A stretch of 64,000 nt of DNA from Flavobacterium sp. ACN6. Its GTDB lineage: Bacteria > Bacteroidota > Bacteroidia > Flavobacteriales > Flavobacteriaceae. Where the stretch lies: contig NZ_MRCQ01000001.1 of NCBI RefSeq assembly GCF_002304005.1, positions 62,001 to 126,000 on the forward strand, read 5' to 3'. The notes below the pieces were generated by a model that ran no database searches, had not been told where the DNA came from, and saw nothing but the letters and a program-made list of their open reading frames with translations. Below, one piece after another: positions 25,205 through 30,343 of this stretch; the first letter of the stretch is position 1; each line of letters starts with the position of its first letter. The translations under genes and the position numbers were made by a program.

Positions 25205-25642
25205 TTAGGAAGAATACGTTTTAAAAGTTCCATTTTTGTAAAAGAATACAATTTTTTCAATTTCGCTTTCTTCCGAGTTTAAATTTGGGCTTTTTAATTC
25301 AGACGGAAATTTTGTTTCCGTTTTTTTATTTTCATTTACTTCAATTCTATAAAATAAATCTTTGTCAGAATTTTGAATTGAAATAGGTAAGGGAGGTAAA
25401 ATTTTTTCTTCGTCATTTTTCGGGAAATTTCCTCTTCCAATTAAAATCCAATAAAGATCTACATCTGGAAAAACTTCCAAAATTTTCATAACAAAATCTA
25501 AACTTGGTTTGTTTCTGCCAGATAATAGGTGAGACATACTCGAACGCTGCACACCAATTTTATCAGCAAATGCAGAGGCATTTAGTCCATAATAGTCTAG
25601 TACAATCTCAAGTCTTTTTACAAAATCATCTATGTTTACCAT
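25205..25642 (-). CDS. XRE-family transcriptional regulator, predicted repressor of itself and the M14 gene
   Basis: DNA-binding protein of 145 residues. The frame is open further upstream, but I choose ATG at 25640-25642 (protein starts MVNIDDFVKRLE) because the upstream part is hydrophobic junk and contains the predicted promoter. The XRE helix-turn-helix is at about 5-60: YYGLNASAFADKIGVQRSS (helices 2-3), then MSHLLSGRNKPSLDFVMKILEVFPDVDLYWILIG. The C-terminal 75 residues are a charged, probably disordered tail. The promoter TTG (25702-25704), 20 bp, TACATTTG (25674-25681) on the minus strand overlaps a TTTAC-N4-GTAAA palindrome, and another overlaps the start codon, pointing to autoregulation. 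Confidence 0.88.
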   Translation of the reverse strand: MVNIDDFVKRLEIVLDYYGLNASAFADKIGVQRSSMSHLLSGRNKPSLDFVMKILEVFPDVDLYWILIGRGNFPKNDEEKILPPLPISIQNSDKDLFYRIEVNENKKTETKFPSELKSPNLNSEESEIEKIVFFYKNGTFKTYSS

Positions 25643-25719
25643 TGTAAATTCTAGTTTTAGAAATGCGTATTTACAAATGTAAACAAAAAGAATAACTATA
25701 ACAATATTACAGTTGTAAA
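25635..25719 (-). promoter_or_regulatory. Promoter of the XRE gene with three operator palindromes
   Basis: Palindromes of form TTTAC-N4-GTAAA lie at 25635-25648 (over the start codon), 25670-25683 (over the -7 box) and 25706-25719 (ATTAC variant, immediately upstream of the -33 box). The minus-strand promoter is TTG at 25702-25704, a 20-bp spacer and TACATTTG at 25674-25681, which fits the Bacteroidota sigma consensus. Confidence 0.75.
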
Positions 25720-25868
25720 TCTTATATATAAAGAATAATAACTTAAACATAAACTTTAATAAAATTACATAAGTAATTGAAAAACAAATTAATGAACTTT
25801 AATTTTGTGATTTATAACATTTGTTAATTCATATCGCTGAACCAATAGGATATTAAGGCAATTAACTG

Positions 25869-25940
25869 TTTACATTTCTAAATTATTAACATTTTAAATA
25901 GTTTACAATTGTAAAAATAAAGATGTTTACTTTTGTAAAC
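25869..25940 (+). promoter_or_regulatory. Promoter of the M14 gene with three operator palindromes
   Basis: TTTAC-N4-GTAAA sites lie at 25869-25882 (one mismatch), 25902-25915 (perfect) and 25925-25940 (GTTTACTTTTGTAAAC, perfect). The last contains TACTTTTG (25928-25935), a TAnnTTTG -7 box, and the middle one contains TTG (25909-25911), a candidate -33 box 16 bp upstream. The M14 start codon is at 25954. Confidence 0.7.
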
Positions 25941-25953
25941 TAATCAAAACACA

Positions 25954-27108
25954 ATGAATTTAGAAGTACTTTTTACAGAATACAAAGAAGAAAGCATATC
26001 TGGAAGATATTTGACTTTAGATCACATTAAACCACTTTTAGATAAATTAAATACAAATAATCAAGTACAGATTATTGGAACATCAGTTTTAGGTGAACCT
26101 ATATATAGTTACCAATTTGGGACAGGACAAACACGTGTTTATTTATGGTCGCAAATGCACGGAAACGAAAGCACAACCACAAAAGCGCTATTCGATTTTA
26201 TTAATCTGCTAAATGGTGAAACAGATTTTGCAAAGAGAATGCTCAATACTTTTACCTTTTATAGTATTCCTATATTAAATCCAGATGGCGCAAGATTATA
26301 CACACGTGCAAATGCTGTTGATGTAGATTTAAATCGCGACTCTCAAGACCTGACACAGCCAGAAAGCAGGGTTTTAAGAGAAGTATTTGAAAGTTTCAAA
26401 CCCCATTATTGTTTTAATCTACATGATCAGCGTACTATTTTTGGCGCAGGAACTACTGGGAAGCCTGCAACGGTGTCTTTTTTAGCACCCTCTTATAATG
26501 AAGAGAGAGAAGTGAATGAGAATAGATTAAAAGCCATAAATATTATTGCAGGAATCAATCACGAACTTCAGAAATATATACCAGGACAAGTCGGCCGTTT
26601 CGATGATTCTTTTAATATTAATTGTATCGGAGATACTTTTCAATTTTTAGGAGTCCCTACTATATTATTTGAAGCAGGGCATTACCCAGGCGACTATGAA
26701 AGGGAAATCACACGTAAATACATATTTTTCTCGTTAATTTTGAGCTTTAAATTGATTTCCGAAAACGTTTTAGTTGATAATCGATTTGGTGAATATTTGA
26801 ATATTTCACAAAATAACGTGGTTTTTTATGATTTTATGTATAAAAATGTCAAAATAAATTATGATGGTATCGAAATTATTACGAATTTTGTCGCACAATA
26901 CAAAGAGGAATTAATCGAAAATAAGATTCAGTTTAATGCTTACATAGTTGAAGTAGGCGAATTGGAAAATTATTTTGGTCACTACGAATATGATGCGAAA
27001 GAGCAGGAATATTCGGATGATTTCACAAATTTTCCCAAATTGGGTCAGAAAGCAAATTTTTATTTAAATAAAAATGTTAAATTTGTTAACGGATTAATAA
27101 AAAGTTAA
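25954..27108 (+). CDS. M14-family metallocarboxypeptidase-like protein
   Basis: Zinc peptidase of 384 residues without a signal peptide. The zinc site is readable: SQMHGNEST (HxxE) near residue 67, FNLHDQRTIFG (second His) near 158, and the catalytic Glu in ILFEAGHYPGD near 237. PILNPDGARLYTRANAVDVDLNRD near 107 is the classic M14 substrate-binding block. The C-terminal 110 residues form an extra domain. Cytoplasmic M14 enzymes may trim peptides or amide-linked amino acids; the substrate is unknown. It is controlled by an operator array shared with the divergent XRE gene and is followed after 77 bp by an Lrp regulator. Confidence 0.88.
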   Translation: MNLEVLFTEYKEESISGRYLTLDHIKPLLDKLNTNNQVQIIGTSVLGEPIYSYQFGTGQTRVYLWSQMHGNESTTTKALFDFINLLNGETDFAKRMLNTFTFYSIPILNPDGARLYTRANAVDVDLNRDSQDLTQPESRVLREVFESFKPHYCFNLHDQRTIFGAGTTGKPATVSFLAPSYNEEREVNENRLKAINIIAGINHELQKYIPGQVGRFDDSFNINCIGDTFQFLGVPTILFEAGHYPGDYEREITRKYIFFSLILSFKLISENVLVDNRFGEYLNISQNNVVFYDFMYKNVKINYDGIEIITNFVAQYKEELIENKIQFNAYIVEVGELENYFGHYEYDAKEQEYSDDFTNFPKLGQKANFYLNKNVKFVNGLIKS

Positions 27109-27185
27109 TTTTTTTGTGAATTTGTTGTTTTTTATATATAATTTTATACTTTGTAATAGCAATTAGTAATATTAATTAAACAATT

Positions 27186-27665
27186 ATGAGTAAATTTCGT
27201 TTAGATGAAGTAGATCACCAGATTTTAGATATGTTAATAGACAATACGAGAGTTCCGTTTACTGACATTGCAAAAAAATTATTGATATCTGCTGGAACAG
27301 TACATGTTAGAGTAAAAAAGATGGAAGACGCAGGTATAATAATGGGTTCTTCTTTAGCCTTAGATTACGATAAATTAGGGTATTCATTTATTGCTTACGT
27401 AGGTGTATTTCTGAATAATACGTCTCAAACAAAATTTGTATTAGAGCGAATTAACCAAATTCCATTCGTTACCGTAGCTTCTGTAACTACAGGGAAATTT
27501 AATATTTTTTGCAAAATTAGAGCAAAAGATACTAAGCACGCGAAAGAAGTTATCTTTATGATTGACGATATCGAAGGTGTTTACAGAACTGAAACAATGA
27601 TTTCATTAGAAGAAAGTATAAACGATAAGAAGCGTTTGATGCATACTATTTTCAAAAATATGTAA
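27186..27665 (+). CDS. Lrp/AsnC family transcriptional regulator
   Basis: Regulator of 159 residues. The N-terminal winged helix (VDHQILDMLIDNTRVPFTDIAKKLLISAGTVHVRVKKMEDAGII, about 8-52) is followed by the RAM amino-acid sensing domain (about 65-150, VGVFLNNTSQTKFVLERI, VASVTTGKFNIFCKIRAKD). Such regulators form octamers that respond to amino acids. It follows the M14 gene by 77 bp and is closed by its own terminator. Confidence 0.93.
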   Translation: MSKFRLDEVDHQILDMLIDNTRVPFTDIAKKLLISAGTVHVRVKKMEDAGIIMGSSLALDYDKLGYSFIAYVGVFLNNTSQTKFVLERINQIPFVTVASVTTGKFNIFCKIRAKDTKHAKEVIFMIDDIEGVYRTETMISLEESINDKKRLMHTIFKNM

Positions 27666-27695
27666 GAACTTTTCTTGAATGCTATATTAAAATAT

Positions 27696-27724
27696 AACCT
27701 CAAGTTTATTCTTGGGGTTTTTTT
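27696..27724 (+). terminator. Terminator after the Lrp gene
   Basis: AACCTCAAG (27696-27704) pairs with CTTGGGGTT (27711-27719), one T-G pair, loop TTTATT, followed by a T run. It lies 31 bp after the Lrp stop and 34 bp before ppc. Confidence 0.82.
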
Positions 27725-27757
27725 ATGACTAATTAACCAACCAACTATAACACGATT

Positions 27758-30343
27758 ATGTATACGTTGCCAAAAATTGAACGTTTTAATCAAGATGTTC
27801 TCTCAAAATACCACATCTATAATAGTGTTTTTATAACATTACCATTTGATTCTATAGATAATACTGGGGTTTTACTTCCTTTATTTACAGAGACTTGCGA
27901 AACGGGCTTTAAAAAACAAGAAACCCCAAAGGAAATTTTTAATTTCTTTTCTGATAGATTTCTTAACAATGCTTCAGAAACTGAAAAAATCGATTTAATG
28001 TTTCGATTTATTCAATATATAGAACGCCAAATTGTATTGTTTGATGCTATTGAAGATGCTGCCTTTCCAGAAGTGAACAACATGGAAGGACGCGGTTCTT
28101 TACGTGATATCAAAGAAAAATCAGATGCTAAAGAGAAAGACGGTGAACTAATTGAGTTTTTAGAAAACTTTAATGTTCGTACTGTTTTAACTGCGCATCC
28201 AACTCAATTTTATCCTGGGCCAGTTTTAGGAATTATAAATGATTTGACTGAGGCAATCCGTCAAAATGATTTATTACAGATTAAACAATTACTGGCACAG
28301 TTAGGAAAAACACCTTTCATTCAAAATGAAAAACCAAATCCGTACGATGAAGCAGTCAGCTTGATTTGGTATTTGGAAAATGTGTTTTACGCAACTGCTG
28401 GAGAAATTGTACATTACCTTCAAAAAAACATAAAAGAGGGAGAGCCAATTCACAATCAATTAATCAAACTTGGTTTCTGGCCGGGAGGTGATCGTGACGG
28501 AAATCCTTTTGTTACAACAGAAATTACGCTTAAAGTTGCAGATCGTTTACGTACTTCAATTTTAAAGTGTTACTATGTCGAAATGAGAAATCTAAAACGC
28601 AAGTTAACTTTCTCTGGTGTAGACACTTTGGTGTCTGAACTTGAACATAAGCTTTATCGTTCTGTTTTCTATTCTAAAGGTGAAATTTTTATCACTTTAG
28701 AAGAATTATTGACGCAGTTAAATAAAATTAGAGCTATAATTATTGAAAAACATCAATCTTTATACTTAGATGAACTAGAAGCGTTTTTAGTAAAAATCAA
28801 TTTATTTGGATTTCATTTTGCAACTTTAGATATTCGTCAGAATAGTAAAATTCATAATGTTGTATTTAAAGATGTTGTGAACTATTATTTGAATTCTGGA
28901 TCTGATATTTTTCCGAAGAACTATTTTGAATTAACAGAAGAGCAAAAAATCAATGTTTTATCAAAAATTAAAGGAAATTTAAATCCTGCTGATTTTGAAG
29001 ATGAAATTACCAGATACACATTAGAGTCTGTTCAGGCGATTAAAACCATTCAAGCAAATAATGGTGAAGAAGGGGCCAATCGTTATATTATTAGTAATAA
29101 CGAAAGTGCGCTGAATGTAATGGAAACTTTCGCTATGATTCGTTTGAATAATTGGGAAAATCCTACGGTTGATATTATTCCGCTTTTTGAATCTGTAGAT
29201 GATTTACAAAATGCACATTCTATAATGGAGCAATTGTATACCAATGCAGAATATTCTAAGCATTTAAAAGAAAGAGGAAATAAACAAACAATTATGCTTG
29301 GTTTCTCTGACGGAACTAAAGATGGTGGTTATTTAATGGCAAACTGGAGTATTTATCAGGCAAAAATTTCATTGACCGAGATTTCTAGAAAATATGGTAT
29401 TAAAGTAATTTTCTTTGACGGACGCGGTGGGCCTCCAGCTCGTGGCGGCGGAAAAACGCACAAATTCTATGCTTCTTTAGGGCCAAAAATCGAAAATAAC
29501 GAAATTCAAATTACGGTTCAAGGTCAAACTATAAGCTCTAATTTTGGAACTTTAGATTCTTGTCGTTACAATATTGAGAACTTATTAAGTGCTGGAGTAA
29601 CTAACCAGGTTTTTAGTAAAGGAAAAAATGAACTTACTGCGGATGAGACTGAAATCTTGACGCAATTGGCTAATTTAGGATATGATAAATATTTGAGTTT
29701 TAAGAATCACCCAAAATTTATTCCTTATTTGGAAAAAATGAGTACGCTGAAATATTATTCTAAAACTAATATCGGCAGCCGTCCTTCTAAAAGAAGTAAA
29801 TCTGAATCTTTAGATTTTGCTGATTTAAGAGCAATTCCATTTGTGGGATCTTGGAGTCAGTTAAAACAAAATGTACCTGGATTCTTTGGAGTTGGTTCAG
29901 CTTTAAAACATTTTGAAGAAAGCGGGCAATGGGATAAAGTAAGCGATTTATATCATAACTCATTATTTTTCAAAACTTTACTGGAAAATAGTATGATGTC
30001 ATTGGCAAAATCGTTTTTACCATTAACAGCATATATGAGAAAAGATCCTGAATTCGGTGAATTCTGGCAGATTATTTACGATGAATTCTCAGAAACAAAG
30101 AGACTTTTACTAAAAATTGCTGATCATAAAACCTTAATGGAAAATTATCCAGATGGTATTGCTTCAATCCAAATAAGAGAGCGTATTGTTTTACCGTTGT
30201 TAACAATTCAGCAATATGCTTTATTGAGAATCAATGAGTTGAACAAAGAAGAATCTCCAAATGAAGAATTGATCAAAGTTTATGAAAAAGTAGTAACAAG
30301 ATCTCTCTTTGGAAATACTAATGCAAGTAGAAATTCAGCTTAA
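27758..30343 (+). CDS. ppc: Phosphoenolpyruvate carboxylase, divergent form
   Basis: Carboxylates PEP to oxaloacetate to replenish the TCA cycle. The 861 residues are near the family length (about 880). The catalytic histidine is His147 in VLTAHPTQ; FWPGGDRDGNPFVT near 240 and GFHFATLDIRQNS near 350 are clear PEPC blocks, as is NIGSRPSKR later on. Some otherwise strict motifs differ: the glycine loop reads FDGRGGPPARGGGK in place of GRGGTVGRGGGP, and the protein ends NASRNSA rather than with the usual RNTG. DFATLD and the other active-site residues are kept, so I expect activity, possibly with altered control. The start ATG at 27758 is the first in frame. Confidence 0.9.
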   Translation: MYTLPKIERFNQDVLSKYHIYNSVFITLPFDSIDNTGVLLPLFTETCETGFKKQETPKEIFNFFSDRFLNNASETEKIDLMFRFIQYIERQIVLFDAIEDAAFPEVNNMEGRGSLRDIKEKSDAKEKDGELIEFLENFNVRTVLTAHPTQFYPGPVLGIINDLTEAIRQNDLLQIKQLLAQLGKTPFIQNEKPNPYDEAVSLIWYLENVFYATAGEIVHYLQKNIKEGEPIHNQLIKLGFWPGGDRDGNPFVTTEITLKVADRLRTSILKCYYVEMRNLKRKLTFSGVDTLVSELEHKLYRSVFYSKGEIFITLEELLTQLNKIRAIIIEKHQSLYLDELEAFLVKINLFGFHFATLDIRQNSKIHNVVFKDVVNYYLNSGSDIFPKNYFELTEEQKINVLSKIKGNLNPADFEDEITRYTLESVQAIKTIQANNGEEGANRYIISNNESALNVMETFAMIRLNNWENPTVDIIPLFESVDDLQNAHSIMEQLYTNAEYSKHLKERGNKQTIMLGFSDGTKDGGYLMANWSIYQAKISLTEISRKYGIKVIFFDGRGGPPARGGGKTHKFYASLGPKIENNEIQITVQGQTISSNFGTLDSCRYNIENLLSAGVTNQVFSKGKNELTADETEILTQLANLGYDKYLSFKNHPKFIPYLEKMSTLKYYSKTNIGSRPSKRSKSESLDFADLRAIPFVGSWSQLKQNVPGFFGVGSALKHFEESGQWDKVSDLYHNSLFFKTLLENSMMSLAKSFLPLTAYMRKDPEFGEFWQIIYDEFSETKRLLLKIADHKTLMENYPDGIASIQIRERIVLPLLTIQQYALLRINELNKEESPNEELIKVYEKVVTRSLFGNTNASRNSA

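Follow-up and report, generated by a model that had tools for sequence, protein, structure and literature searches.

The closest described systems are of three kinds. Phage repressors of the lambda CI and 434 type act at operator triads, OR and OL, and at PRM lambda CI combines activation with repression. GalR, LacI and AraC are DNA-loop regulators, and the evidence for looping usually comes from engineered spacing series. Controller (C) proteins, for their part, belong to restriction-modification systems. In this report we analysed a 64,000-nucleotide stretch of the Flavobacterium sp. ACN6 genome, called the window throughout, and focused on a spacer between divergent genes for a XRE-family regulator and a M14 metallocarboxypeptidase-like protein. 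Comparison of this spacer across Bacteroidia leads us to propose, with good though not full confidence, that the XRE protein is an autoregulatory repressor that binds two triads of palindromes, joins them through a DNA loop and silences both promoters.

The XRE/M14 locus and its proteins

The XRE (minus strand) and M14 (plus strand) genes are separated by a 311-bp spacer, in which a sequence-only reading had noticed six TTTAC-N4-GTAAA palindromes, four perfect and two with one mismatch. All six are there, and five had been given their right coordinates, the last starting at 25926 and not at 25925. The features, with the sites numbered O1 to O6, are the following.

25205..25642, minus strand: XRE gene, 145 aa, with Pfam HTH_3 and Phage_CI_repr matches
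25635..25648: O1, perfect site, spanning the XRE start codon (25640-25642, minus strand) and codons 2-3
25670..25683: O2, perfect match, covering the XRE -7 box
25674..25681, minus strand: XRE -7 box TACATTTG, inside O2; predicted +1 near 25669 if the box lies at -12 to -5
25706..25719: O3, one mismatch
25869..25882: O4, one mismatch
25902..25915: O5, perfect match, 5' of the M14 -7 box
25926..25939: O6, perfect match, covering the M14 -7 box
25928..25935, plus strand: M14 -7 box TACTTTTG, inside O6; predicted +1 near 25940
25954..27108, plus strand: M14 metallocarboxypeptidase-like gene, 384 aa (PF00246, E 1e-11)
27186..27665, plus strand: Lrp/AsnC-family regulator gene, 3' neighbour of M14

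The same reading had placed one site over the XRE start codon, which indeed falls in O1, and each -7 box within a palindrome, as is the case for the TAnnTTTG sequences, on the minus strand in O2 and on the plus strand in O6; both promoters thus have a common site-over-box layout. A study of F. psychrophilum positions a TAnnTTTG-type box at -12 to -5 (PMC9723704), from which the predicted starts near 25669 and 25940 follow. The inner edges of the O1-O3 and O4-O6 triads are 149 bp apart in the window. A seventh, weak palindrome with two mismatches is found mid-spacer, at 25764-25777.

The XRE protein matches PF01381 (HTH_3) at 28.9 bits against a cut-off of 23, which makes it a member of the XRE/HTH_3 group. 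Its AlphaFold2 monomer model consists of an HTH domain at about residues 1-70 (pLDDT about 90), a 49-residue stretch at 78-126 with pLDDT under 50, probably a disordered linker, and a C-terminal beta hairpin at 130-144 (pLDDT about 80-85). Within the hairpin, I131, V132, F134, Y135, G138 and F140 each show conservation of 90% or more across 98 sequences; searched against the genome, the hairpin tail matched solely the XRE gene itself at E <= 10. The Foldseek search returned 434 Cro, C.AhdI, C.BclI, SinR and HigA among its matches, the best at E 2.6e-3 and none at 0.001 or below, and no solved sequence relative of XRE was found at E <= 0.001. Two narrower assignments were rejected. A HigA antitoxin would have to reach the TIGR02607 cut-off of 47.7 bits, and XRE scores 20.3. 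CI/LexA-type repressors carry a C-terminal S24 peptidase/dimerisation domain, for which XRE gives no Pfam match and has the low-confidence linker and hairpin instead. Phage matches to XRE are weak (five records, at most 35% identity), and its PHROGs matches are generic regulators.

The M14 protein matches PF00246 at 45.5 bits (cut-off 21.6), and H69, E72, H157 and E240, which we take to be the expected zinc ligands and catalytic Glu of a zinc carboxypeptidase, are invariant in the 30 rows compared. Its structural model is poor (mean pLDDT 57), with Foldseek giving a carboxypeptidase fold at the level of fold class only, and its one solved sequence relative is 3k2k, at 1.3e-4. Identity as the murein tripeptide amidase MpaA was rejected (NF007897, 28.5 bits against a cut-off of 157).

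Conservation and helical register of the sites

In a genus sample of 150 genomes, XRE was matched in 110 and M14 in 149, with the XRE matches in G016, G042, G068 and G145 looking like paralogues. We examined 70 genus XRE loci, mostly the better-scoring ones and the window's own among them. M14 is divergent from XRE in every one of them, and relative to the XRE start the sites recur near -7, 28, 64, 228, 261 and 285; O2 and the O5/O6 pair were scored in all 70 loci, O1 in 67, O3 in 46 and O4 in 60. Double perfect sites occur in at least 74 of the 150 genomes, a reversed control pattern giving 0 among the matches listed; also among the matches listed, double perfect sites lie off the locus in G051, G075 and G114. 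In the latter two genomes a similar double site was seen remote from the XRE locus (G075:C1:35901-35950 and G114:C35:154903-154952). A set of 80 named relatives, taken from 420 matches with XRE identity up to 79% and partly overlapping the genus genomes, consists entirely of Flavobacterium or unclassified Flavobacteriaceae; M14 and the O5/O6 pair are each present in 79, and one locus (L292) ends at a contig end.

For the family, 249 genomes were sampled, of which all except two belong to other genera; 235 of the 249 gave a XRE match at E <= 1e-6. The 108 other-genus loci that we examined are mainly better XRE matches, and the fractions with scored sites may therefore be optimistic: O1 in 94, O2 in 87, O3 in 13, O4 in 66 and the O5/O6 pair in 98. 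The score matrix derives from the genus sites, and a distance of 24 bp between O5 and O6 is built into the pair score; mono-shuffled controls gave 0/108 for both O2 and the pair, and unfitted site lists for genus and other-genus loci show the same sites as the scored lists. M14 is divergent within 700 bp in 106 of these 108 loci, is missing from L204 and lies at 866 bp in L272. The comparison with relatives that had been proposed as a check on the array thus finds the palindromes conserved beside XRE and M14 in both genus and family. Operator-like sites over the regulator's own promoter and start codon, the arrangement looked for in autoregulation, are present in genus and family alike as O1 and O2.

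O1 is conserved at the DNA level within the XRE frame, with codons beyond the demand of the protein sequence alone. In genus and family loci, counted over related rows, 110 of 115 valines at codon 2 are encoded by GTA, against 39% of valines further along the gene, and 48 of 49 isoleucines by ATA, against 26%; RTA accounts for 158 of 164 Val/Ile codons at this position. At codon 3, 167 of 173 asparagines use AAC, compared with 27% at later positions. On the M14 side, TAnnTTTG lies within 60 nt upstream of the gene in all 70 XRE-containing genus loci. The -33 elements that had been predicted fared unequally. For XRE, a TTG 20 bp from the box is plausible (45/70 genus loci, 25/87 other-genus loci); for M14, a TTG at 16 bp (52/70 and 65/98) is doubtful, because it falls inside O5 and its frequency may merely reflect the operator.

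The distance between the two triads varies in steps. In 98 other-genus loci, the offset of O5 from the XRE start clusters around 231, 240, 252 and 262. Offsets of 221, 228, 282-283 and 295 occur once or twice, and the interval 244-249 is empty, although one genus locus has an offset of 247. The best period is about 10.7 bp (R 0.70, the largest value in 5000 jittered sets being 0.35). Since shared descent could mimic phasing, we paired tips disjointly on the M14 protein tree, leaving out of the phasing tests the loci under the score limits. In 46 disjoint pairs the O2-O5 distance differs by 0-2 bp in 21, by 3-8 bp in none and by more in 25, and 21 of these 25 larger differences are within 2 bp of multiples of 10.5 bp (jittered mean 9.9, binomial p 0.0002). 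For O5 offsets in disjoint other-genus pairs, 16 of 20 are within 2 bp of whole turns. A first pairing had given 19/27 for O5 offsets and 18/22 for O2-O5, for which the re-paired tips gave the 21/25. Turn classes, defined as rounded offsets, change at least 40 times over 107 tips of a 'quick' tree (dropped were L113, L210 and L218, with no readable M14 frame, and L204, with no M14 match); as this tree and FastTree were used, change counts are approximate and gain is indistinguishable from loss. Some distances are off-step, namely O2-O5 of 199, 208 and 219 and O1-O2 of 30-32; the O1-O2 distance is 24-26 in 8 loci, 30-32 in 4, 33-36 in 139 and 45-47 in 6.

The stretch between the triads, roughly 130-150 bp, holds no conserved site, and whole-turn spacing across it predicts a loop that would bridge them. 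It might be argued that XRE autorepresses from each triad independently, with no loop and with a register that comes from short-range cooperativity and shared descent. Adjacent sites are close together (in most loci 24 bp from O5 to O6, and 33-35 bp from O4 to O5), and many bacterial repressors act in such a way, but it is the inter-cluster distance that changes by whole turns, in the 21 of 25 cases given above, whereas near whole turns are found in only 6/16 for the distance from O6 to the M14 start codon, in 6/18 for that from the M14 stop to the Lrp start (genus loci) and in 1/4 for a neighbouring divergent spacer (genus loci). We therefore regard independent action of the triads as unlikely. 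The phase could also reflect another promoter-promoter contact, made by RNA polymerase or a nucleoid protein. Looping between the clusters by XRE, which the sequence-only reading had put forward, is the account that this comparison favours: the distal sites are in helical phase. Evolution has in effect run a spacing series over about a hundred genera, and other distances, measured in these or related loci, depart from the rule.

Sites in loci without XRE and beyond the family

Genus loci that have M14 and lack XRE allowed the sites to be followed apart from the regulator. We counted as such those with no XRE match or, in G016, G042, G068 and G145, with only a weak match elsewhere, and examined 40 of the 44 genomes at M14 (left out were G034, G069, G093 and G116); in L159 and L165 the contig ends less than 300 bp upstream of M14, and XRE absence there is judged from that stretch only. 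In the 310 bp upstream of M14, 38 of the 40 have no scored site, one has one and one has two, compared with 3 to 7 scored sites in XRE-containing loci. A looser count over 500 bp adds a single one-mismatch site in six further loci, at -54 to -180. Two loci keep more: L161, whose M14 is 89% identical to the window's, has an undamaged -7 box and both sites on the M14 side, each with one mismatch, and L153 retains one perfect and one near-perfect site. In many XRE-less loci an acyltransferase gene directly precedes M14 and the whole intervening stretch is gone, so that the sites there may simply have been deleted along with it. More weight falls on the loci with a -7 box and without a scored site, found among the 21 of 40 that keep TAnnTTTG within 60 bp of M14 (save L153 and L161). 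In L156, L157, L166, L167 and similar loci, M14 stands right behind the acyltransferase gene, without TAnnTTTG in the examined sequence, as if it had been taken into the acyltransferase operon.

XRE state changes at least 8 times on a FastTree of M14 proteins (one 23-residue M14 protein dropped), and among 7 independent pairs the sites track XRE in 6, go against it in none and tie in one (sign test p 0.031). Together with the sites found beside XRE homologues of other families (see below), this tracking points to XRE as the likely protein that binds the palindromes. Because sites lie over both -7 boxes, repression of both genes is predicted, and the dual repression that had been suggested from the array is supported by comparison, in that the sites go with the XRE gene. 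One could imagine that XRE represses its own gene yet activates M14, as lambda CI does at PRM: O4 and O5, upstream of the M14 -7 box, could hold a protein touching RNA polymerase, and no clear -33 element is seen outside O5. We consider this quite improbable, because O6 sits over the M14 -7 box and because 21/40 XRE-less loci retain TAnnTTTG near M14, as expected of a freed promoter.

There is even less to be said for the palindromes binding another regulator, such as Lrp, or being RNA hairpins or a repeat element. The Lrp gene does adjoin M14 in all 40 XRE-containing genus loci long enough to show it, but it also does so in all 40 XRE-less loci, where its product is kept at 89-100% identity while 38/40 have lost the sites. 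The position of the Lrp gene beside M14 with or without XRE, and the zero sites with up to one mismatch from 25940 to 30189 of the window, likewise leave unsupported the earlier suggestion of a peptide or amino-acid sensing switch. The Lrp-family protein (27186-27665) is itself very conserved, at 88-100% in 40 XRE-containing genus loci. Outside the family, sites accompany XRE with M14 present in 1/24 loci, and of 20 perfect sites inspected elsewhere in the genome 17 fall within open frames of at least 80 aa, which makes binding by another regulator, an RNA hairpin or a repeat origin very improbable.

A class-wide sample extends the case for XRE as the binder. A XRE relative was matched at E <= 1e-12 in 48 of 247 genomes, family members included. 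Outside the family, 19 of 24 XRE loci have at least one site (up to one mismatch, -15 to +300 of the XRE start), and the 24 loci, two of them represented by short stretches, together hold 54 sites where shuffles predict 1.6. M14 was found within the 1.5-kb flanks in a single one of them (L364). As the sites accompany XRE where M14 is mostly absent, the regulator-site pair looks older than its association with M14. In four loci of one non-Flavobacteriaceae family (L357, L359, L362 and L366), the XRE homologue and similar sites stand beside a DtxR/MntR-like regulator and/or a metal-binding lipoprotein, suggesting another target there. A RecF-like gene adjoins the XRE homologue in L365, L367, L370 and L373, with sites at about 135 and 170 bp, and the 35-bp site distance recurs in these four loci. 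The names of these neighbours were read from translations.

All four perfect sites of the window are in this spacer, and 11 sites with up to one mismatch lie elsewhere in it. The genome has 29 further perfect sites; of 20 inspected, 17 lie within open frames of at least 80 aa (mechanical frames) and three outside, and the 2-kb stretch around each of the 20 is devoid of a second perfect site. A genome-wide regulon is not supported on these grounds, the inspected sites being mostly intragenic and none paired within 2 kb. That the array is a chance product of AT-rich DNA has next to no probability: 25630-25953 is 81% AT, but 5000 dinucleotide shuffles of it yielded means of 0.004 perfect sites and 0.13 with up to one mismatch (maxima 1 and 3) against the four and six observed, a frequency far above random DNA, and the sites are conserved across the family.

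Predicted mechanism and known systems

The mechanism that we propose has XRE as a dedicated repressor that also regulates itself; it would bind GTTTACAWWTGTAAAC-type palindromes, presumably in dimeric form. The O1-O3 triad would cover the XRE -7 box and start codon, and the O4-O6 triad the -7 box from which M14 is divergently transcribed. Within each triad the binding of dimers would be cooperative, a DNA loop would bridge the triads in helical register and close both promoters together, and some signal would release both. The C-terminal hairpin is a candidate for the oligomerisation or bridging contact, which is a guess. Searches of an open literature collection turned up no paper on the XRE/M14 locus, on its motif or on such a looping repressor. 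We tentatively suggest, at slightly less than even chances, that a chromosomal mini-XRE family with one operator sequence and changing neighbours across Bacteroidia represents a looping repressor undescribed in that literature, in which a flexibly tethered hairpin would do the bridging and the triads would have stayed in register, under selection for the loop, through perhaps dozens of whole-turn indels. The locus points to a conserved M14 peptidase as the gene under control and lends itself to testing looping and cooperative repression in Bacteroidota.

Compared with C proteins, two of which (C.BclI and C.AhdI) are among the Foldseek matches, XRE is alike in its small size, its HTH and the palindromic operators that cover its own promoter. 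Unlike them, it has no restriction-modification gene among its scanned neighbours, and its array has two outward promoters and long-range phasing. With lambda CI and 434 repressors it shares an HTH of the same fold class (at weak Foldseek E-values), two groups of three short palindromes, with O5 and O6 starting 24 bp apart, and, as predicted features, autoregulation, cooperativity and bridging. It differs from them in having no detected CI-type C-terminal domain, just a 15-residue hairpin, in having no phage genes among its four scanned neighbours, and in its target, a M14 peptidase, with triads about 150 bp apart rather than kilobases. Finally, in comparison with GalR, LacI and AraC, XRE is of a different protein family, has six sites and predicted divergent autoregulation, and the evidence for its proposed loop is evolutionary rather than biochemical; what it would have in common with these regulators is a loop of comparable size that depends on helical phase.
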